From positions 108,181 through 172,180 of the forward strand of contig JAOZOU010000002.1 in the NCBI GenBank assembly GCA_029933125.1: a stretch of DNA of 64,000 nucleotides, in the 5' to 3' direction. The stretch is from a bacterium (lineage in GTDB: Bacteria; Arandabacterota; Arandabacteria; Arandabacterales; Arandabacteraceae). The notes beneath the pieces were generated by a model that saw nothing but the letters and a program-made list of their open reading frames with translations, ran no database searches and was not told where the DNA came from. Of the stretch, positions 38,969 through 50,274 are shown in pieces; the first letter of the stretch is position 1, and every line of letters starts with the position of its first letter. The position numbers and the translations under genes were made by a program.

Positions 38969-39152
38969 TCCGAGCCTCACCGTTTAAGTCCAAAGCCACC
39001 TAAAAGTCCATGATTCCTTGGGAAGCCAGGCTTTGCTGTCACGCCATAAGAGCCATCTACGCAGGAGCACAATGCTACCTCGTTTGACATTCCTTAGAAT
39101 ATGTGATATGCTTACCCCAGAAGTCAACTCTTTGGGAAAGGAGAAGAGAGAC

Positions 39153-40883
39153 GTGTCCGCGCGCTTCATGCTTGTTGTTGCGTTCCTCGGCGTTGTTATC
39201 CTCACCGCTCAGGTCAGCTTTGGATTTAGTCCGGTTGAGGAGAATGCCCAATGGGAAATCCCTCGATATGGTGCCCCTTCCCAGAAGGTTTGGCAGAATT
39301 ATCACGTAAAAGTTATGAAGGGAGTGGCTATTAGCCCTCTTGAGCGTTTCGCCTCAGAATATGGCGGTGATTGGCACTATCAGATTAACGACTTAACAGG
39401 TACGTATCACCATGTTTATGGTAGCGGGATTGATATAGGTTCCCCGATAGTGACAGCCGAGGCAGCTGAGGGAGCTGCTCGGGAATTCATAGGCAATAAC
39501 CCGGACCTCTTCGGCATAGGCGATGAGGACTTGAAGGTGATGAGCAATGCTGCTGGACTTGGAAAACGCTCAGTCATCTTTCAGCAAACCTACAATGGCC
39601 TCAGGGTCTGGGGGGGACGGCTGCACCTTGTCTTTACTGAAGCTGGTAGACTCTTTGAATTTGGTTCGGACGTCTATCCTGATATCAACATCTCCACCGA
39701 GCCTTCCCTCTCTCAAGAGCAGGCTCTCGCAGTCGCTAAGGATGGTATTGGCTTTGTTGAAGGTCGCGATGAGGTGACTCACAGGGAGCTTCTCATCCTT
39801 CCAGTTGAGGAGAATGAGACGCTTACCTATAGACTTGCTTACCGTTTTGATCTCAGGACAGTGGAGCCTTTTGGCATATGGGCTACATATGTGGATGCGA
39901 ATTCAGGCGAGATTCTATGGCGGGAAAATCACGTGCGCTTTGCTAACTATACGGGGCACTCCCAGGGTGACGTTGAGTGGGATAGTTATTGCGATGGATA
40001 CACTCGAGATTATGCCCTCATCAACATGCGGATCGACATATCCGGAGTTGGTTCAACCAATACTGATGCCAATGGTAACTTTGCAATCTCTGGAGGTACA
40101 GGTTCAAAGACGATTTCAGCTGAGTTCCGCGGTCCATTTGTCAATGTTGATCGCTATACAGGTGGTGATGCAACTCACTCAGGCACTATTGAACCGGATG
40201 TGCCCTATACAATAGATTGGAATCTATCGGGTGCCACAGACGATGAGCTTGATGTCTTCTCCTATGTGAACAGGGAACATGATTGGCTCAAAGCAATCGA
40301 TCCATCCTTCACGGATCTCGACTATGAGATGACAGCTTCAATACAGAGGACGGACCTCTACCGTCCTGGAAATGCATGGTGGGATGGTTCAAGTATCAAT
40401 TTCTGCGAGGAAGGGTCGGGTTATGCAAACACCGGTCGCATGGGAGACGTTGTTTACCATGAGTACGGTCATGGTATAACAGATTTCCTTTATGGCGATA
40501 ACGATCCACCTGGAGATCTTCACGAGGGCAATTCCGACATTGTTGCCAACTACCTCACGCGTGAAAGCATCATAGGGCTCGGGTTGTATCTTAATGATTG
40601 CTCTTCTGGCATTCGCAATTCATATAATACGCTGCAATATCCATGCAGTGGGGAAGAGCACTACTGTGGTCAGCTCATTGCAGGTTTCCACTGGGATGCC
40701 TGGCAGGAGATTCTCAATTCCTACCCTCAAGCCTATGCTGATAGCGTTGCTTTCTATACGTGGCACTATGGCAGGAAGCTAGGTTTACCTCAGACCCAGC
40801 CCGATCAAGTCCACTGGACATTTGTTGCGGATGATGATGGGAATCTTTCAAATGGGCCCCCCACTACGATGCTTTCTGCATAG
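39153..40883 (+). CDS. M4/M36-type zinc metallopeptidase, N-terminal part (interrupted by frameshift)
   Basis: Start chosen at GTG 39153, nine bases after AAAGGAG; ATGs at 39018, 39072 and 39108 are in frame but lack a ribosome site and would bury the signal (FMLVVAFLGVVILTAQVSF). An FTP/PepSY-type propeptide follows (LFGIGDEDLKVMSNAAGLG, YNGLRVWGGRLHLVF). The catalytic domain has VVYHEYGHGITDF with zinc His at about 436 and 440 and a downstream Glu at about 458 in LHEGNSD. The frame stops 21 bp after a C6 run at 40857-40862, where one missing C shifts it. Reading on in the frame from 40862 gives HYDAFCIAAANHNF, so the full protein is about 1087 aa. Confidence 0.82.
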   Translation: MSARFMLVVAFLGVVILTAQVSFGFSPVEENAQWEIPRYGAPSQKVWQNYHVKVMKGVAISPLERFASEYGGDWHYQINDLTGTYHHVYGSGIDIGSPIVTAEAAEGAAREFIGNNPDLFGIGDEDLKVMSNAAGLGKRSVIFQQTYNGLRVWGGRLHLVFTEAGRLFEFGSDVYPDINISTEPSLSQEQALAVAKDGIGFVEGRDEVTHRELLILPVEENETLTYRLAYRFDLRTVEPFGIWATYVDANSGEILWRENHVRFANYTGHSQGDVEWDSYCDGYTRDYALINMRIDISGVGSTNTDANGNFAISGGTGSKTISAEFRGPFVNVDRYTGGDATHSGTIEPDVPYTIDWNLSGATDDELDVFSYVNREHDWLKAIDPSFTDLDYEMTASIQRTDLYRPGNAWWDGSSINFCEEGSGYANTGRMGDVVYHEYGHGITDFLYGDNDPPGDLHEGNSDIVANYLTRESIIGLGLYLNDCSSGIRNSYNTLQYPCSGEEHYCGQLIAGFHWDAWQEILNSYPQAYADSVAFYTWHYGRKLGLPQTQPDQVHWTFVADDDGNLSNGPPTTMLSA

Positions 40884-42412
40884 CTGCGGCGAACCACAAT
40901 TTCGCATGTCCCGAGATCACACCCGGTGTCTTTATTACTCACACGCCTCTTGAGAATACCTCTAATACTTCAACACCCTATGAAGTTGTTGCAACCATAA
41001 CTTCAACTGAAGGCACAATCGTTGAGGACTCGTGTCGCGTTGTCTATCGAGTAGATGGGGGAGCCTTTGCAAGCGCTGTGCTGACAGCAACAGGCAATCC
41101 GGATGAATATGTTGGCTATATTCCCGCCCAGTCGTTCTGTTCAGAGATTGACTATTACATTTATGCAGCTGATGACGCAGGCTTTAGCAGTACACATCCT
41201 TCGGGTGCTCCCGCGAATTTTCATACCTTCCATGTTGGCTATGAAGTCATTTTCGAGGATGACTTTGAGGTTGACAGGGGCTGGACTGCTGGTGTGGCTG
41301 GCGACGATGCCACAACCGGTACGTGGGAACGATGCGATCCGCAGGGAACAGAAGCCCAGCCTGAGGATGACCACACTACTGATCCTGGAGTAAATGCCTA
41401 CATAACCCAGTGCGCAGCGGGTGGGAGTCAGGGGACCTATGACGTTGATAATGGGCGCACAACCTTGAGGTCGCCAATTTTCGACCTCAGTACCTATGAC
41501 AGAGCGACTGTCAGCTATTATAGGTGGTATTCCAATGATACGGGGGCTGAGCCTGGACAGGACTACTGGATTGTTGAGGTTAATGATAACGCTGGCTCCG
41601 GCTGGGTGCGGCTGGAATACACAAATGTGAGTGACCGTTCATGGCAGAGGAAGGAATTTGACATTGGTGATTTTGTGAGTCTTACGAGTTCAGTCCAGTT
41701 TCAGTTTATTGCAAGTGATTCCGCTCCAGGATCACTTGTTGAAGCGGGTGTTGACGATTTCACGCTTCTCAGTTGTGTTGCAGGTGGCGACACTCTACCA
41801 CCGCATGTTACGGTACTTGAGCCGAATGGTGGAGAGGTGATAGTCGGTGGGAGTGGCGTGGCTACACAGATTCGATGGTCATCAAGCGACAATGTTGGAA
41901 TAGCAGTAACTCACCTGCTCCTTTCAACAGATGGGGGGTTGACTTTTCCTGACACTATTGCCTCGGGCAGTCTGGATTCGACCTACGACTGGTACGCTCC
42001 CGATATTGAAGCTCCAGCCTGTCGAATAAAGGTTGTATGTGTGGATAGCAGTGGCAATGAAGGTTCAGACCTATCAGATGGAGACTTTGAAATAAGCGGT
42101 ATCTCTGGTTTACCACCCCTCGCAGGCAGACCGAGGGAAGTTGTGCTTCTGCCAGGCAGGCCCAGCCCATTTGGCGCAGAGACTCAAATCGAATTTGGTC
42201 TACCTGAGGAAGCCAAGGTTACGCTAAAGATCTATCGAGCTGATGGGAGAATGATAACAAAGCTCATAGATGAGATTGTCCCACCTGGTTACCATGTTGT
42301 CACGTGGAGTGGCAGGGATTCGAGGGGGCAAGAGGTTTCGCCCGGTGTTTATTTCTGCAGGATGGAAACGAAGGCTAAGGTTGTTACCCAGAAGCTACTA
42401 ATTGTAAGATAG
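40862..42412 (+). pseudogene. C-terminal part of the metallopeptidase with sorting domain (out of frame)
   Basis: Continues the metallopeptidase at 39153 in another frame; the motif NGPPHYDAFCIAAANHNFAC spans the shift if one C is added. Domains: end of the peptidase, an Ig-like stretch, a jelly-roll/immune-inhibitor-like module (about 41255-41780, EDDFEVDRGWTAGVAG to GVDDFTLLSC), another Ig-like part, then a FlgD/type-A tail (LPGRPSPFGAETQIEF, GVYFCRM, ending KLLIVR). If the frameshift is real, the peptidase would lose its sorting tail and could not be exported by that route. A sequencing error or slippage is possible. Confidence 0.75.
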
Positions 42413-42455: not shown

Positions 42456-44480
42456 CTATCCCGGGACCGATTGTCTCAGGTTCTGGGCTTTTTGGAGATG
42501 CAGAATTTCTACAGTGGCTCTCAGGATCTCTGCCACACTCCATGCCTGTGCTATGCAGCCATTGGGTCTGTGAGGAGGATCCCCGTCAAAGATCTCTGAG
42601 ATCGTTCCCAATCCTGCCCAGCGAAGATGCTCACGGAAAGGTTCAAGCTGGCTTCGAACGTAATCAAGTGTTTGAGGGGAGTAGCCATGAGCCTTAACGT
42701 AGGCAATGAGGTAGTGACCGAGAAGCCAAGGCCAAACTGTTCCCTGATGATAGGCATGGTCGCGAGCAACGAGATCTCCAAAATAGCGTCCTCTGTAGTT
42801 GGGATCCTGCGGGGCAAGGGTTCTGAGCCCATAGGGTGTGAGGAGATACTGTCCAACAACTTCGACGACCCGTTGCCACCTTTCCCTTCGGAGCACGGGA
42901 TGGGTAAGACTTATTGCAAAGATCTGATTAGGCCTCAGCGATGGATCTTTACCTTCAGGCGTAATGTTGTCATAAAGGTAGCCCCCATCCTCATTCCAGA
43001 ACAGGTTGTTGAATGCTTCACGGGTGCAAATTGCGAGGTCATCGTATTTGGCTTCTTCTGCCAATCCACCAAAGTCTGATGCAAACCTGGCCATGATCTT
43101 GAGCGCATTGTACCAGAGAGCATTGATCTCGACTGGTTTGCCGATGCGTGCAGTTATTACCCTATCTCCAACCTTCGCATCCATCCAGGTTAGTTGGACC
43201 CCCTCACATCCACCTCTGAGTAAGCCGTCCTCGTCCACGCCTATTCCAAAGAGGGTACCTTCAAGATGCTTATCAATGCATTGCCTGAGGCTAGGAAGGA
43301 TTTCAAAAATGAAGTCTCCATCACCTGTTGCCTCATAGTATTTCCAGGTGGCTTCGAAGAGCCAGAGCGTAGCATCTATGGTGTTGTAAAGGGTCTCCCC
43401 AGGTTCTTCCCCGAAGCGATTGGGAATGAGTCCATCTTTCATACTTGCGACAAAAGTCGCTATTATCTGACGAGCCTCTGCGAAGCGATGGGTGGCGAGA
43501 CAGACCCCGGGAAGGCTTATCATAGCGTCCCTTCCCCAGTCGGTGAACCAGGGATAGCCAGCTATTATACTCTTACCATTGGGCTTGCGATTGACTATGA
43601 AGGCATCAGCTGCAAGTGCAAGTCTTGAGACAAGGCGGTCCTCAGAGTCGGCAGCCTCAAGGCAGGCTCTTCGCCTCGCTCGTTCAATCTCAAGCCTTTC
43701 GTCAAAGTCACTTATAGGGTCGTGTCCTGCCGAGAAAGCCATTCTTGCACTCGAAGTAAACTCAAATGTGAAAACAAGCCTACCGGGCGAGAAAAGATCC
43801 TCAGTCGCCTCATATCCGCTTTCATCTTCTTTGCGATAGTAGAAGTTGTAATACCAGAGGGGCTGGTATTCGAATCTTCCCTTGGCGAAGGAGATTGTCA
43901 GTGGCACACCTGTTCCATCTTCGAAAGTAACCGAGGTCGGCTGAGCATCGAGAGTCACATTGAAGCCATCCAGGGCGCGAATAAGATCATGGTGGCTTCG
44001 CATCGCTATTAGGGGTCGGACCTCTAACAATATCTGACCTTCCCTTACCGTTTTGGGCACATGTTTAAGCCTATATATTACGCACGTTGTATTCTCACCA
44101 TGGCACATGAAAACCACTTTCTCAACTATGAGGCCATCTATGTCAAAAAGGAAGGTCGGGAAGGGATTGAGACTAAACTCCTTGAGATGACGGTAGCCCT
44201 CGGGATGGATCACATCGGCATACTGATGTGTTGAAATTGGATAGCGCTTCCCCTTCGCTATTATAACCTCTTCAAGGTCGGCAACAAGCAATCTGCGATC
44301 GGTGGGCGGGTTGTGTGATGCGATGAGGAGGCCATGATATCTCCGTGTTCTTACGCCACTAATAGTGCTTGACGCGTAGCCCCCCAGACCATTTGTCTCG
44401 AGATATTCTCTCTCAAGTGAGAGATCAAGATTTCTGATTTCTTCCTGGCCGAGCTTAATCAGCTCCACTTTCGGCTCCAA
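42456..44480 (-). CDS. Glycogen debranching enzyme (amylo-alpha-1,6-glucosidase)
   Basis: 674 aa. The N-terminal GDE_N domain starts with EYLETNGLGGYASSTISGVRT and has RRYHGLL. The C-terminal (alpha/alpha)6-like GDE domain has AGYPWFTDWGRDAMISLPG with the catalytic-region Asp, LYNTIDATLWLFEA, LTWMDAKVGDRVITARIGKPVEINALWYN and RDHAYHQGTVWPWLLGHY. It removes alpha-1,6 branches in glycogen breakdown. It overlaps the preceding heme-type gene by 26 bp and closes a minus-strand operon; a metabolic link to the four membrane genes is not obvious. The imperfect hairpin at about 42432-42460 may end the unit. Confidence 0.9.
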   Translation of the reverse strand: MEPKVELIKLGQEEIRNLDLSLEREYLETNGLGGYASSTISGVRTRRYHGLLIASHNPPTDRRLLVADLEEVIIAKGKRYPISTHQYADVIHPEGYRHLKEFSLNPFPTFLFDIDGLIVEKVVFMCHGENTTCVIYRLKHVPKTVREGQILLEVRPLIAMRSHHDLIRALDGFNVTLDAQPTSVTFEDGTGVPLTISFAKGRFEYQPLWYYNFYYRKEDESGYEATEDLFSPGRLVFTFEFTSSARMAFSAGHDPISDFDERLEIERARRRACLEAADSEDRLVSRLALAADAFIVNRKPNGKSIIAGYPWFTDWGRDAMISLPGVCLATHRFAEARQIIATFVASMKDGLIPNRFGEEPGETLYNTIDATLWLFEATWKYYEATGDGDFIFEILPSLRQCIDKHLEGTLFGIGVDEDGLLRGGCEGVQLTWMDAKVGDRVITARIGKPVEINALWYNALKIMARFASDFGGLAEEAKYDDLAICTREAFNNLFWNEDGGYLYDNITPEGKDPSLRPNQIFAISLTHPVLRRERWQRVVEVVGQYLLTPYGLRTLAPQDPNYRGRYFGDLVARDHAYHQGTVWPWLLGHYLIAYVKAHGYSPQTLDYVRSQLEPFREHLRWAGLGTISEIFDGDPPHRPNGCIAQAWSVAEILRATVEILHLQKAQNLRQSVPG

Positions 44481-45078
44481 TTGCTTTCAGGAATTCAAGG
44501 ATGCTTTGGGATTCGGGCTTGCTTATCCATGAAGGGTCCTTCTTCCGCATTTTTTCAACAGTCAACTCCCAGTCCTCGGGTGATTTACGAGCCGTAAGTG
44601 CTTTTTCAAGGCGATGGCATTTGGAACACTTGATAGCAAAAATGTCCCTGCCAGCGGTGAGGGTTTTAGCCGATTCTGGTGCAACCTGAGTCCTGAGACC
44701 GGGCTTGAGGATACCTGTAACGAAAACAGCATAGCCAAGAACGAGAAGCACACTTCCAATAGTAAAGAGGCGATTGCGGAGCTCCGGATATCTTTCAACA
44801 ATAACAATCTTGGCAAGAAACAGCGGGACCATGAGACTTCCCAGGAGAAAAAGGACGAAGGGGTAGCCCTCGAGCCTACCCTCGCCCCTTAGCTGCCCGA
44901 GACTCAGGCTCAAAACAATTGCCGCAAAGGAGAGTATGGTCAGAGAGCCGGCTACTCTATGAAAGATACGCAGCAACTTTGCGTGCGAGGTGTGAGGTGA
45001 GCCCAGAAGATGCAACATGGTAAAATATGCGGCAGAAATGGATCCAATAAAGCACACAAGCTCGGCAAGATATAACAT
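44455..45078 (-). CDS. Membrane protein with C-terminal CxxCH heme-binding motif
   Basis: 207 aa from ATG 45078 (GAGGTG upstream); a TTG at 45135 is in frame but weaker. Four to five hydrophobic helices (LAELVCFIGSISAAYFTMLH, GSLTILSFAAIVLSLSLG, YPFVLFLLGSLMVPLFLA, LFTIGSVLLVLGYAVFVTGI) are followed by a soluble tail with CSKCH and, later, MRKKDPSWISK. This is a small c-type-cytochrome domain with a possible Met axial ligand. It is the last of four membrane genes in the unit from 48460, and overlaps the debranching-enzyme gene by 26 bp. It may move electrons for the unknown complex. Confidence 0.65.
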   Translation of the reverse strand: MLYLAELVCFIGSISAAYFTMLHLLGSPHTSHAKLLRIFHRVAGSLTILSFAAIVLSLSLGQLRGEGRLEGYPFVLFLLGSLMVPLFLAKIVIVERYPELRNRLFTIGSVLLVLGYAVFVTGILKPGLRTQVAPESAKTLTAGRDIFAIKCSKCHRLEKALTARKSPEDWELTVEKMRKKDPSWISKPESQSILEFLKAIGAESGAD

Positions 45079-45159
45079 GGCTATTTGACACCTCAAATGT
45101 GCGTTGAGACTATCAATTTCGAACTTATGTGTCAATCCAATATCATGGCGCTAGAGCAT

Positions 45160-45786
45160 CTAATGAACGATGCCCAGCCAGTCAGTGAAGAGGAATTGGA
45201 ATCGACCAATCAGCAGGCTAACACGCCCCATGACGTTATAGCCGAAGGTCGCGCCGAATCCAATCATCAGGAAGGTTATACCTACCTTGGAAAGGGTCTT
45301 GAGGGGTCCCCTGTGTTCGGCTGAGAAATAGAAATAGATGAGGGTCGTGGAAACACCTATGAGTAGAATGAGTGCGGAAAGAGCTTCCCCCAGTGGCATC
45401 CCTCTTGGATTGAACATTGTATCCTGAGCTTGCTGAAGAATTCTTACCTGAATATAGGATGGTATGACATAGCCTGCCCAGGCAGCGATGTAGAAGGCGA
45501 CGGGATAGCGCGAGATCCATTCAGTTCTGCGAAAGAGCCTGGTGAACATCAGAAGCCCAAGAATGCCGCCAACGAGCAGAACATGGTGACCCTCCTGAAA
45601 AACTGGAACCCAGAGTTTCTTATAGGCTGCCGAGAAGAAGTATTGAACGAGGTAGTAGCCAGCAGATACCCCTACGAGCAGGTGCTCAGCAAACCTGTAG
45701 AAGGGATTATCCTTATAAAGAAACGAGAAGATCGCAAGCGTTAGTATGCCCGCTACCCATATGCCTAGGTCATGAGTCACAGCCAT
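45160..45786 (-). CDS. Unknown six-helix membrane protein (DUF6754 cluster)
   Basis: 208 aa with about six hydrophobic stretches, for example LGIWVAGILTLAIFSFLY, HHVLLVGGILGLLMFTRLF and LIGVSTTLIYFYFSA. Charged loops hold conserved-looking FYRFAEHLLVGVSAGYYLVQ. I do not recognise a named family. It is 81 bp ahead of the heme-type gene and 9 bp after the single-span protein, so it is part of the same unit. Confidence 0.55.
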   Translation of the reverse strand: MAVTHDLGIWVAGILTLAIFSFLYKDNPFYRFAEHLLVGVSAGYYLVQYFFSAAYKKLWVPVFQEGHHVLLVGGILGLLMFTRLFRRTEWISRYPVAFYIAAWAGYVIPSYIQVRILQQAQDTMFNPRGMPLGEALSALILLIGVSTTLIYFYFSAEHRGPLKTLSKVGITFLMIGFGATFGYNVMGRVSLLIGRFQFLFTDWLGIVH

Positions 45787-45795
45787 AGTGCTTCC

Positions 45796-46629
45796 TCACT
45801 TTTGCTCCCTGCGTTTAGCTCTGCGGAACAGAAAGTAACCAACATTCCCGACGAGGATAAAGGCAAGCATAAGTGCATGTGCAACAGACTGAGCATCCAT
45901 ACCTCGTATGCCCATCCCAGGTGCGTTGATCAGTTTTTCATATTCAGCTGCACCTTTAAGCCCTCCCAGAAATCCTGGAATCTGCCCAGCCTTGTAATAC
46001 GGGTATATCAGAATAGCCTGGATAGCCGTGTTTCCAGATATTACCCTGGCGCCATATCTTCCCCCCGCCCAGATTGCCCAGTATTCGGAAAGTGCACTTC
46101 CCGAGATTGACACCACAAGAGCAATGTCACGATAGGTTTCCACATTCTTCATGATGGGGATCTCGTAGACGCTCTTGCCGTACTGGTCAGTTGGATAGGT
46201 CGCCTTGAAGCTTTCACCCAGCCTCAGCATTGTTCCTGACCAGTCCGGATTGTAACCGAGGAAGACATAGTCAACTCCATAAGTTTTCCCATAGCGATTT
46301 GCGGCCTCGGTGAGCAAACGCTCTGCAATACCTGTTCCGCCTGCATAGGTTGTGATTGCGATGACCTTGATGCCTCTCGAGAATGCGTGTTTCAACACGG
46401 CCACAGCCATTGGGTTGAGTTCAGCCATCACATCGCCTTCGTAATCGAAGGACAGCAGTATGATATCGCCAGGCTTAAGGGCAGCCATTTCTCGGTAGAA
46501 ATTCATTGTTTCTTCGGAGATTTGAACTGGAAAGCCGAGTGGAACAATTATCGGTATCGCCACGGCGAGACCAACAGAGAGGAAGATGATCCGCCTGTCG
46601 ATTGACATCATACGATCATAAAAAGCCAT
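45796..46629 (-). CDS. Unknown bitopic membrane protein with an exposed domain (DUF6754 cluster)
   Basis: 277 aa. One N-terminal helix (IIFLSVGLAVAIPIIVPLG) and one C-terminal helix (AHALMLAFILVGNVGYFLFRRAK) enclose a roughly 210-residue soluble domain. It contains KPGDIILLSFDYEGDVMAEL, KVIAITTYAGGTGIAERLL and GVDYVFLGYNPDWSG, a Rossmann-like alternation without a catalytic motif I can name. ATG overlaps the preceding stop (TGATG), indicating coupled translation with the 46629-47270 protein. Confidence 0.6.
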   Translation of the reverse strand: MAFYDRMMSIDRRIIFLSVGLAVAIPIIVPLGFPVQISEETMNFYREMAALKPGDIILLSFDYEGDVMAELNPMAVAVLKHAFSRGIKVIAITTYAGGTGIAERLLTEAANRYGKTYGVDYVFLGYNPDWSGTMLRLGESFKATYPTDQYGKSVYEIPIMKNVETYRDIALVVSISGSALSEYWAIWAGGRYGARVISGNTAIQAILIYPYYKAGQIPGFLGGLKGAAEYEKLINAPGMGIRGMDAQSVAHALMLAFILVGNVGYFLFRRAKRREQK

Positions 46630-47270
46630 CAGTCCGTCTTCCCCAGATAAGTCTGTTCTATGCCCAGGATGATCTTTATCGCCGTGGCGGTCATCCCAAG
46701 TCCTACCCCTATCATAATTCCCCGCTTCGCTGCAGCGTTAGGCACATTGAGCACCCAATCGGAGATGGCAACAAGTGATATCTTCACTCCGAAAATCGAA
46801 CCTGACAGGTAACTTCCTATGGGTACACGTCCGAGCATGACCAGCGCACCTGCGATGAGCAGCAGGGTCGCATGGAATGTTCTCGCTCTGAATGCTCGAT
46901 ACGAGGCTGAAGCAACGAAGAAGGCAAGGAGCGAAAACATGGTTGATTGCATAGGAACCTGGACGTTGTTGAAAAGCCACGGATATGGACCCTCGGCAGT
47001 TTTCCATATGAGGGCAGCCAAGACTGTTATGGCGAGTCCGGCCAGGGTTACATAACTGTATTGCCAGTTCTCTCTTTTCCTGTTGATCTTTATGTAATGA
47101 TAGCGGATGAGGCTCCAGGTTCCGAGAATGAAAGTAAACCCCAGAACAACCTGCTTCCAATCGAGAATTGTGTTATAGGCTTCTTTGAAGAAGGCAGCCG
47201 GCGTGAAGAATTGTATAAGCATAAGCATGCCGATGGCAAAAGCTAGTATGATCGGTCCCTGACGCTTCAT
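46629..47270 (-). CDS. Unknown six-helix membrane protein (DUF6754 cluster)
   Basis: 213 aa, with hydrophobic segments such as PIILAFAIGMLMLIQFFTP, QVVLGFTFILGTWSLI and FSLLAFFVASASYRAF. Short charged loops (RYHYIKINRKRENWQY) separate them. No known family recognised. It follows the DUF6754 gene by eight bases and is coupled by TGATG to the next gene. Confidence 0.55.
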   Translation of the reverse strand: MKRQGPIILAFAIGMLMLIQFFTPAAFFKEAYNTILDWKQVVLGFTFILGTWSLIRYHYIKINRKRENWQYSYVTLAGLAITVLAALIWKTAEGPYPWLFNNVQVPMQSTMFSLLAFFVASASYRAFRARTFHATLLLIAGALVMLGRVPIGSYLSGSIFGVKISLVAISDWVLNVPNAAAKRGIMIGVGLGMTATAIKIILGIEQTYLGKTD

Positions 47271-47278
47271 TGCCCTTC

Positions 47279-48460
47279 CTATCCGAACGCTTTGCGAATC
47301 ATTTCAGCGATCTCCGGTCTCACGAGGTATAGCAGAACAACACCAATGGCCGCTCCAATAATGATTGCCTTAGCGTAATCTTGAGCCTTGAGAGCTCCAA
47401 GTAGCAGCGGCTGGCGAGAGAGATAGACACTTCCAGCGTAAAGCTCCTCACCAATCAGGGTATAATCACAGGCACTGATGAAGAAGGGAAGCTGGGCATC
47501 TGCATCAGTTCCTGCGATCTGGATTGCACCCGTTGCATTTCCTGTCTCAGCAAGCACAAGTGATTCTGCGTAGAAGCGACCCATGAAGAAGTTGGTTGCA
47601 GGCTTCTCGCGCATCATTAGACCCGCAACTGCTGCAGCAAATCCAAATTGGCTGAAGGTCACATAGAAGACATCCTGACTTCGAAACATGTGGGGCTTGC
47701 CAACCGCCGAGAAGGATTCACGCACGACCTGCTGGGCGACTGCCATAACAATTGGGTCGCGATTTGGCACGAGGAGCCTCGTGCCATATTCACCAGCCTT
47801 CTTGGCTACCTGCCCGAGTATGTCTATGGCTGCAACAGTTGCCACTTCATCCATTGCCTCAAGTCCTGGTACATAGAGAATTGGACGCCCCATCTCAGTT
47901 GCTCTCCCGACTGCTTCTTCTATTGCCTCGAGACCTGCTATGCGTCGGATGAAAAGGCTCGCTCCGCGCCTTGCTCTTTCAACGAAGGTGACAACAGCTG
48001 CTATGAAAAGAATCGTAGCAATAAGAATGTTAGTATGGCTCCTGTCAAGATATTGTCGCTCAGGTCTTAGAGGCTGACTTTGATTGGATAAAATGATCAT
48101 TTTTGGCGCATAAGTGGCAAGCCTGTATACGTAGGAAGTGTCCTTTGAAAGATGGGAATCAACGAAAAGTGTATCATTTGCACGATTCATGCCTGCACGC
48201 ACCCAGCCAGCATGTGTCATGACCTCGGCGAAAGAGGATGAATCCGTGAAAGTTGTGATCTCAACTGGTGAGACCCCATGATGAGCACGCCAAACCTCAT
48301 AGCGGATAATCGAATCAGGAGGAAGTGGAGGCTTCCACCTGACAGTAAGGCTGTTTCCCCAATCATTAGGGGTATCGTTCACCTCGATAAGTGCAGGTGT
48401 GACTGCACAAGGCAGATGGGTAGTCAGAGAAAGCAACATGAAAGCGGTTGTAAGCAACAT
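47279..48460 (-). CDS. DUF6754-like exported membrane protein with fibronectin-III-type domain
   Basis: 393 aa from the ATG at 48460, eight bases after GGGAGA; the in-frame extension to 48691 is untranslated leader. A signal peptide (MLLTTAFMLLSLTTHLPCA) leads into a fibronectin-III-like domain (SLTVRWKPPLPPDSIIRYEVWR). Then come a helix near residue 150 (TNILIATILFIAAVVTFV), a cytosolic alpha/beta domain (RPILYVPGLEAMDEVATVAA, GAIQIAGTDADAQLPFFISA) and a C-terminal helix. The alpha/beta part fits the DUF6754 domain as I know it. It opens a minus-strand set of four membrane genes; the function is unknown. Confidence 0.6.
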   Translation of the reverse strand: MLLTTAFMLLSLTTHLPCAVTPALIEVNDTPNDWGNSLTVRWKPPLPPDSIIRYEVWRAHHGVSPVEITTFTDSSSFAEVMTHAGWVRAGMNRANDTLFVDSHLSKDTSYVYRLATYAPKMIILSNQSQPLRPERQYLDRSHTNILIATILFIAAVVTFVERARRGASLFIRRIAGLEAIEEAVGRATEMGRPILYVPGLEAMDEVATVAAIDILGQVAKKAGEYGTRLLVPNRDPIVMAVAQQVVRESFSAVGKPHMFRSQDVFYVTFSQFGFAAAVAGLMMREKPATNFFMGRFYAESLVLAETGNATGAIQIAGTDADAQLPFFISACDYTLIGEELYAGSVYLSRQPLLLGALKAQDYAKAIIIGAAIGVVLLYLVRPEIAEMIRKAFG

Positions 48461-48780
48461 TCGAGAAATCTCCCGACGCATATTGTGAAGGTTAGCACAG
48501 GGGATGGGTTGAGTAAACAGGTATTGTTTATGGGCGCTGGTGAGATTGTTCTTGGCAAAAGAGTTAGGGATGAAAGCTGGTATCTGGCGAGAGGGTATAA
48601 CGTCGTCCGGGATAGCCCCAGCTCTCATCCCCTGCATTTCCGGGTGTCGATACCGCGATCGACCCCTCCACGCTAAGCTCTCTATCGGCACTTTCGTGCA
48701 ATGGTTTTAGAATGTTTTGGAATGTGCAGTCTGGTTGACGCCTCTTAAGCACGGTGGTAGGATTAGCCAAGGCAGGGGAG
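48461..48780. other. Divergent intergenic region between the DUF6754 operon and the 48781 gene
   Basis: About 320 bp with no gene. A plus-strand promoter candidate is listed separately. A weak minus-strand TTTACT-N17-TAACCT can be found near 48485-48515. Confidence 0.45.
48735..48763 (+). promoter_or_regulatory. Candidate sigma70 promoter of the 48781 gene
   Basis: TTGACG at 48735-48740, 17-bp spacer, TAGGAT at 48758-48763. The start site would fall near 48770, about ten bases before the ATG at 48781 and just including its AAGGCAGGGG ribosome site. This also argues against the upstream in-frame GTG at 48754. Confidence 0.5.
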
Positions 48781-50274
48781 ATGGATTTGAAGACGCAAGT
48801 GAAGGTTACTGACAGCGAGAGGGTTGATTTCGACGGTCCCTTCATCTTTTGCGACTATTGGGCAAGTGTGCTCAATCTCAAGGAGATAGTTAATCTCGAA
48901 GCCCTGACGAGCGCAGGACTCTCCCTTGAGGTTTTCAGGAAAATCCTCAACCGACCTTCTGCTGCTCTGCCAAGACTTGGCTACTACATTGTCGCATCGG
49001 TATTCAAACCCTTCACTATGATTTTCTTTGGTTTCCTGCGGCTCTTCGGGTATCGCCGGCGGGAGACACCAGAGCCTTATCAGCGTGATGAGATGCGCCG
49101 CCTTCTTTACAAACACACTCTAAGGGTGGAATCCAAGCCAGGTGGGCTTGCTGAAATTTTCTCCAATGGCAGTCAGGTTGCCAAGGAGACTGTGAATCCT
49201 CTGCGGCTGCGGGCCTCATGCAGCATGTTTTTTGCAAGATACAAAGTCTTTCTGGCTTCGCTTGTTGCTCTCGGTTACGGAGCTCTCATAGGTCCAATCT
49301 CAAGCCTTTTCGCTAAAGGGCATTCTCTTGTACCTTATCTCGGTGTTCTATCCTATCCCATTGTGCTTCTCATATTGTGGCTTATGTTTGATGACTTACT
49401 AACTGCAATCGTTGCGCCTCTACCTCTGATTGCAATAAGAATGATAATAAGAGCTGGACAGGGGTTTCAGGGCTTTGTGATCGCCATAGTCGGGACAGCC
49501 TTGATTCTCTATCTTGTTGAGTGGTTCTTCATCCCACGCTCTTTACCGCCAGCCCTTTATCTCTATGTCAATGATCGCGAAAGCAGGTTCTTTCCCTATA
49601 GGCCTGGTCATGAACCTTACTGGCTTGAAGGTAAGTACTACTGGGTTTGGCGCTTTGTGACTCTTGCGCCAGCTGAGCTCATTAAGTTCTGGGAAAAGGA
49701 TTGGGAGCGACTTGAAATATGGATACGAGCTGATGGGGAAAACCGTGGCTCTATTGAATGGATAGTCACTGATTGGCACTACAGGGAGCTGTGGTTTCGA
49801 TATGAGCGTCTTGTCGGCAGACTAACCCGTGAAATGTACTCAAATCTACTGAGGAAGGAGATAGGCTCTGATACCAACCTCAGCTGGATCATCGATGTGG
49901 ATATGGATCTCGTTTTCCACTCGCCCGTTGTAAGGGGGATTCATCTTGTAAGGGGAAAGAGCCTGTCGCTTGGAAAGAGATGTCTTTCTATTCTGGGTGC
50001 GATTTTCCGCAGGAGACTTCTTGAGGATCCTGAACAGCATAAGCACCGTCTTGAGCTACTTGAAATCCAGGGCAGCGAATTTCTAGATGATGTTCCTGAG
50101 CACTTTAGAACCATGGCTACGCGGAAGCTCTTGAGCATGCCATGGTCATACTGGCGCTTCCCCAGGGGAGTTAGATCCAGACGTACCTTCTTCGTCTATG
50201 GGGGTGCCAATTCTTTGGGCGATGGACCTGAGCTTGCATCAGATCCACGATTCCAAATAAAAGAGCCCAGGTAG
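48781..50274 (+). CDS. Unknown multi-span membrane protein
   Basis: 497 aa. The N-terminal ~120 residues are soluble and charged. Four or five hydrophobic helices lie between about 75 and 260 (KPFTMIFFGFLRLFG, VFLASLVALGYGALIGPISS, YPIVLLILWLMF, FVIAIVGTALILYLVEWFFI). The C-terminal half is a cytosolic, Trp- and Arg-rich domain (GKYYWVWRFVTLAPAELIKF, GSIEWIVTDWHYRELWFRYE). No known family recognised. The stop codon lies in the loop of the hairpin that terminates the convergent gene. Single gene. Confidence 0.55.
   Translation: MDLKTQVKVTDSERVDFDGPFIFCDYWASVLNLKEIVNLEALTSAGLSLEVFRKILNRPSAALPRLGYYIVASVFKPFTMIFFGFLRLFGYRRRETPEPYQRDEMRRLLYKHTLRVESKPGGLAEIFSNGSQVAKETVNPLRLRASCSMFFARYKVFLASLVALGYGALIGPISSLFAKGHSLVPYLGVLSYPIVLLILWLMFDDLLTAIVAPLPLIAIRMIIRAGQGFQGFVIAIVGTALILYLVEWFFIPRSLPPALYLYVNDRESRFFPYRPGHEPYWLEGKYYWVWRFVTLAPAELIKFWEKDWERLEIWIRADGENRGSIEWIVTDWHYRELWFRYERLVGRLTREMYSNLLRKEIGSDTNLSWIIDVDMDLVFHSPVVRGIHLVRGKSLSLGKRCLSILGAIFRRRLLEDPEQHKHRLELLEIQGSEFLDDVPEHFRTMATRKLLSMPWSYWRFPRGVRSRRTFFVYGGANSLGDGPELASDPRFQIKEPR

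Follow-up and report, generated by a model that had tools for sequence, protein, structure and literature searches.

A 64,000-nucleotide stretch of contig JAOZOU010000002.1 (positions 108,181 to 172,180; assembly GCA_029933125.1, family Arandabacteraceae; hereafter the window) carries four adjoining minus-strand genes, A to D, which encode an exported DUF6754 protein and three further membrane proteins. The explanation we favour overall, at roughly even credence, is that they specify one of several paralogous four-subunit inner-membrane complexes belonging to a seven-component system. Three further components, k6, c5 and c4, are encoded elsewhere in the genome, and this is the most telling fact to lie beyond the view of an initial annotation of the window. 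We regard as probable both the seven-part composition and a hub-and-spoke architecture, in which one k6–c5–c4 set goes with one to seven membrane cassettes. Since the cassettes almost always accompany this single soluble set, which includes a likely ATP-using protein, the whole looks like a new cell-envelope machine. Its purpose is put forward more tentatively, as ATP-coupled transport with exchangeable membrane modules.

The initial annotation had read fixed gene order and translational coupling as signs of a single complex, counting four genes in its title and five in its text. Four is the correct number. The order A-B-C-D recurs far beyond this genome, in 118 complete cassettes from many phyla, where adjacent genes often overlap or lie very close together, and the proteins retain median identities of 39–53% across more than 100 same-order loci; such recurrence argues that the arrangement is not due to chance. 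Pairwise-distance correlations among A to D over the 118 cassettes were r = 0.68–0.82, against at most 0.13 after permutation, with host relatedness, which was not removed, contributing to these values. Judged from their sequences, A to D co-evolve as a unit, and as four genes rather than five. Iterated hidden Markov model (HMM) searches detected B in 36 loci, and relatives as well as distant genomes were seen to carry two or three cassettes in tandem. Cassette lineages include Nitrospira, Scalindua, Poribacteria, WOR-3 and Zixibacteria; the closest named cassette locus (L086) is labelled Eisenbacteria. Gene calls were mechanical throughout, and many loci derive from metagenome assemblies.

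Co-occurrence was assessed in 60 relatives and in 242 genomes with a completeness of 90% or more. Among the relatives, A, C and c4 were found in the identical 20 genomes, 19 of which also encode k6, which none of the other 40 does; a MutL match passing the cut-off was present in 19 of these 20 genomes and in two others. In the larger sample, A was present in 66 genomes spanning 51 families. Here c4 was detected in 63 of the 66 and in none of the remaining 176, and the long c5 in 62 of the 66 and again in none of the 176. A MutL match exceeding the Pfam cut-off does occur in seven genomes lacking A; in six the protein is of the short GlmL type, and the seventh match is marginal. Fisher p-values for these associations are extreme, although the genomes are not independent, the 66 with A falling into 51 families. 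Physical linkage alone cannot account for the pattern, because the contig that bears c4 has no A match in 34 of the 63 genomes. Copy number is asymmetric: full-length c4 is single-copy per genome, whereas A occurs in one to seven copies, with two or more in 30 of the 66 genomes.

The three partners are predicted to be soluble. Their genes lie outside the window, at G000:C152, in a cassette beside glycine cleavage genes (L040). k6 (~120 aa) is short, conserved and unassigned to any family. c5 (~600 aa) is related to MutL/GlmL (PF13941, 6e-129) and carries the phosphate motifs of the ASKHA group, DCGSTTTKA and DIGGATTD, from which it is predicted to bind ATP. c4 (~376 aa) combines a barrel-sandwich hybrid with a weak KOW/SH3-like region. 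In several phyla c4 and c5 stand upstream of the cassette and k6 upstream of c5, giving the order k6-c5-c4-A-B-C-D, which is unbroken or almost unbroken in Nitrospira, Scalindua, Zixibacteria, CSSED10-310, Zipacnadia and the window lineage; k6 precedes A even at the most diverged loci (L055, L056). A further small membrane protein, k15, with a weak match to the bacterial PH domain, is often found upstream of k6 and sits beside the hub in several genomes. We also observed a second class of proteins in which the MutL domain and the barrel-sandwich are fused in a single open reading frame (ORF), mostly of ~880–1030 aa, and which occurs only in cassette genomes (L168:940-3580 on G002:C17; G003:C86; G088:C29 and C51; G117:C8; G148:C160; G229:C32; G241:C4; L118:16792-19050).

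The kinship of c5 to GlmL raises the question of whether it reactivates an adenosylcobalamin-dependent or radical enzyme as a chaperone of the GlmL type, with the membrane genes as unrelated hitchhikers. Its strong PF13941 match and its presence in gcv-lplA neighbourhoods of several lineages would fit such a role. c5 has its MutL domain and ASKHA motifs in common with GlmL/MutL (PF13941, TIGR01319), but it is longer (~600 aa, against ~460–480 aa for GlmL), scores below the cut-offs of the glmL_fam, GlmL and Or-4 models (GlmL/glmL_fam: 230 versus 475 and 171 versus 204 bits), and shows 29–32% identity to two short proteins of GlmL type, against 48–70% within c5. Its distribution speaks against the chaperone role. 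Of the 66 cassette genomes, a single one (G120) has a full-length glutamate mutase (GlmE), which lies next to a short GlmL distinct from c5. The other three strong GlmE matches, likewise with short GlmL, belong to genomes without cassettes (G085, G109, G212), whereas the long c5 was found nowhere but in cassette genomes. As GlmE thus tracks the short GlmL and not c5, the idea that c5 is a glutamate-mutase accessory was rejected, and we consider the chaperone-and-hitchhiker explanation very improbable.

Of the membrane proteins, only A belongs to a catalogued family. It is a clear full-length member of PF20539 (DUF6754; 370.8 bits against a Pfam gathering cut-off of 27), itself a domain of unknown function, and has a weak FN3 match, in agreement with its initial description as an exported FN3/DUF6754 protein. 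B, C and D gave no Pfam match above cut-off, and none of A to D gave one in NCBIfam; the early impression of a set without assigned function holds. Two six-helix proteins had been expected; hydropathy gives six transmembrane (TM) segments for B, while D shows four clear ones, six helices being likely but not confirmed. C has one N-terminal and one C-terminal segment flanking a large domain, and A has three, namely a signal or N-terminal segment, a central one and a C-terminal one, which would place FN3 outside and DUF6754 in the cytosol. AlphaFold2 (AF2) models of A and C are confident. FN3 dominated the fold searches with A; its DUF6754 region (residues 181–354) resembles Sir2 (1ma3; Z 11.2, 140 residues, 3.6 Å), and the nearest folds to C are CODH/ACS epsilon (3cf4_G; Z 10.0, 145 residues, 3.1 Å) and TrkA (Z 9.2). 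Both the Sir2 and the CODH epsilon matches may reflect no more than common Rossmann-like arrangements. In a search against PDB sequences the A profile hit only FN3, the B, C, D and c4 profiles gave nothing convincing, and profile-profile comparison revealed no relation between A and C or between B and D. No C was found in viral contigs, and A to E, c4, c5 and k6 gave no match in the anti-phage defence database PADLOC-DB.

Conservation is uneven across the complex. The least variable part is the cytosolic DUF6754 domain, which is dense in invariant or near-invariant polar residues (R179, R193, E196, R291, E306, E312, Q321, Q330, C338, D339, E346, D368 and K371, numbered on the 400-aa A protein), and the most variable subunit is C. 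FN3 repeats in A range from zero (L053, L055, L056, L068) to several (L042). In L042:7907-10735 and L052:7630-10434 about 650 residues precede DUF6754, with several FN3-like repeats in the former. Conserved cysteines are absent from B and D, none in C exceeds 42% conservation, and A has a single invariant one; a haem or Fe–S redox core in A to D is unlikely on this count and was rejected.

These observations bear on whether the system is a redox or ion pump of the RNF or Na+-NQR kind, with c4 as an RnfC/NqrA-like subunit, B and D as small integral subunits and C as a bitopic periplasmic one. The barrel-sandwich of c4 matches RnfC_N (33.4 bits, cut-off 25.6; 4.9e-8) and NQRA_N (25.5 bits, cut-off 25; 1.5e-5), the combination of small integral subunits with a TM-anchored periplasmic subunit is shared, and the Sir2 and CODH/ACS epsilon folds are both of NAD/FAD-binding type. 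The match of c4 is, however, confined to the barrel-sandwich region, apart from the weak KOW; no NADH/FMN-binding, SLBB or 4Fe-4S domain was found in it, and its scores against the full-length models fall far short (rnfC 22.6 versus 246 bits, nqrA 16 versus 321). The core moreover has no haem motif and, apart from the one in A, no conserved cysteine, and the B and D profiles match neither solved chains nor each other. We therefore think a pump of this kind quite improbable.

A redox link had also been suggested at the outset through gene E, directly downstream of D, as part of a five-membered complex. E has a class I cytochrome c motif, CSKCH, together with Pfam cytochrome c matches below cut-off, and C(A/S)KCH is retained in four orthologues, as had been anticipated. 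Clear orthologues among the 60 relatives are restricted to genomes of the window's family (G001, G003, G004 and G005), and the same E, motif included, lies beside window-type cassettes in G003 and G004. In the loci examined, E was found in none of the genome's other paralogous cassettes and in no cassette outside the family. By this distribution E is a lineage-specific neighbour outside the core unit, and the core itself is devoid of redox motifs; the redox proposal consequently loses its support, and a five-gene A–E redox complex is the least likely of the explanations weighed here, with very little in its favour. Since CxxCH persists in its family orthologues, E may serve as an accessory to this particular version of the cassette.

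The copies of A within single genomes point to an old paralogy. The window's genome has six, five of them flanked by B, C and D and one solo (L037). In the A tree, the window's family contains distinct paralogue groups that differ in the neighbours they conserve (gcv-lplA, transketolase, HpaB, M28 peptidase, solo and window type). The M28, gcv and window-type copies group with copies from other phyla, which suggests that the paralogy is old, the deepest nodes of the tree being weakly supported. Upstream of cassettes we also noted housekeeping genes that depend on lineage, namely aroK-aroB, transketolase/serA-like and purF (Poribacteria L116, L120, L122, L125, L135, L138 and L147; Fermentibacteria group L118 and L143; L104 and L111). 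The solo DUF6754 genes (L037, L073, L063) adjoin a pair of FAD/Fe-S oxidoreductase genes.

To bring these features together, we tentatively suggest that a single GlmL-derived ASKHA ATPase module, k6–c5–c4, drives interchangeable DUF6754-B-C-D transport complexes unrelated to ABC, ECF, TRAP, RNF or secretion systems. On this scheme c5 would hydrolyse ATP and use c4 and k6 to dock on the DUF6754 domain, cytosolic and conserved, in every A subunit. The path through the membrane would be formed by B and D, and the substrate or partner of each paralogue would be set by the C domain and the FN3 repeats of A, the periplasmic parts that vary. Such a mechanism would account for the unequal copy numbers, for the contrast between a conserved cytosolic side and a variable periplasmic one, and for the behaviour of A to D as a unit. 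The logic would resemble that of ECF transporters, with one ATP-binding module for several membrane modules and a copy-number pattern that fits. The likeness is one of logic only: no sequence relation was found, ECF systems use ABC ATPases where the candidate here is an ASKHA protein, and transport itself is a guess.

Several observations count against the transport mechanism or against the composition of the system. ATPase activity of c5 is deduced from its motifs, and no transporter homology was found for B or D. c4 went undetected in three of the 66 A genomes and c5 in four. DUF6754 genes occur without B, C and D in three genomes of the family (L037:8125-9246, L073:5394-6527 and L063:1876-3066). 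The genes flanking the cassettes (gcv, aroKB, purF, transketolase, HpaB, M28 peptidase) vary by lineage and hence give no clue to a substrate.

The same set of components could instead organise the envelope, c5 acting as an actin- or FtsA-like ASKHA protein that positions or assembles A-B-C-D scaffolds rather than transporters. The ASKHA-type motifs of c5, the repeated FN3 domains of A, the multi-copy tandem cassettes and the PH-domain-like k15 beside the hub would all be at home in such a system. The strongly conserved polar and charged residues of B and D, on the other hand, suit a functional path better than a scaffold, and c5 is closest to GlmL, not to FtsA or MreB. We judge envelope organisation unlikely, though it deserves more weight than a pump of the RNF kind.

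Taken singly, A falls within DUF6754 and c5 is remotely related to GlmL; the system as a whole seems not to have been described in databases or the open-access literature. No counterpart as a system was found in Pfam, NCBIfam or PADLOC, and neither one nor any mention of DUF6754, PF20539 or PF13941 was found in open-access publications, subscription journals and preprints being outside the search. An envelope system present in 66 of 242 near-complete genomes, in up to seven versions each and without an assigned function, marks a sizeable gap in bacterial physiology. With the components listed and a copy-number logic supplied by the phylogenetic profile, the question can be put to direct test. 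The same profile sets a large branch of PF13941 apart from the glutamate-mutase role that its name implies.

Table 1 Genes of the window-type cassette and its downstream neighbours (window coordinates).
Gene	Position	Strand	Description	Evidence
A	47279..48481 (alternative ATG start 48460)	-	Signal/N-terminal TM; FN3 ~27-144; central TM ~147-171; predicted cytosolic alpha/beta DUF6754 ~181-354; C-terminal TM	PF20539, 3.7e-111; AF2 mean pLDDT 92.5; FN3 matches; topology
B	46629..47270	-	Integral membrane protein, 6 TM; conserved Arg125, Arg128, Arg183, Glu205	Iterated HMM, alignment, topology, conservation
C	45796..46629	-	TM / predicted large periplasmic Rossmann-like domain / TM	AF2 mean pLDDT 96.3; positive-inside topology
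D	45160..45786	-	Integral membrane protein; invariant Glu34, Gln119, Tyr151, Arg188	Alignment, conservation, hydropathy
E	44455..45135	-	Membrane protein whose cytochrome c-like C-terminus has CxxCH; lineage-specific, possibly accessory, outside the core	
F	42456..44480	-	Glycogen debranching enzyme; mere neighbour	GDE_C, GDE_N (Pfam)

An ORF check of the window bore out the initially described layout, with A to F head to tail at intervals of 8, -1, 9, 81 and -26 bp. The 1-bp overlap of B and C is the site of the TGATG coupling that had been described. The 81 bp between D and E are counted to the ATG at 45078, and 24 bp remain if the upstream TTG is taken; the end of E runs into the debranching gene F, which adjoins the window-type paralogue in G003 and G004 as well. 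Promoter and terminator scans returned weak, uninformative sites.

Two neighbouring plus-strand regions complete the picture of the locus. A gene at 48754-50274, oriented divergently from A, encodes a 506-aa protein without a Pfam match above cut-off; in G002, G003 and G004 it likewise adjoins the cassette of the window type. Beyond F, at 39018-42412, two successive frames resemble, as judged by eye, a single split exported metalloprotease with a C-terminal sorting-type domain.

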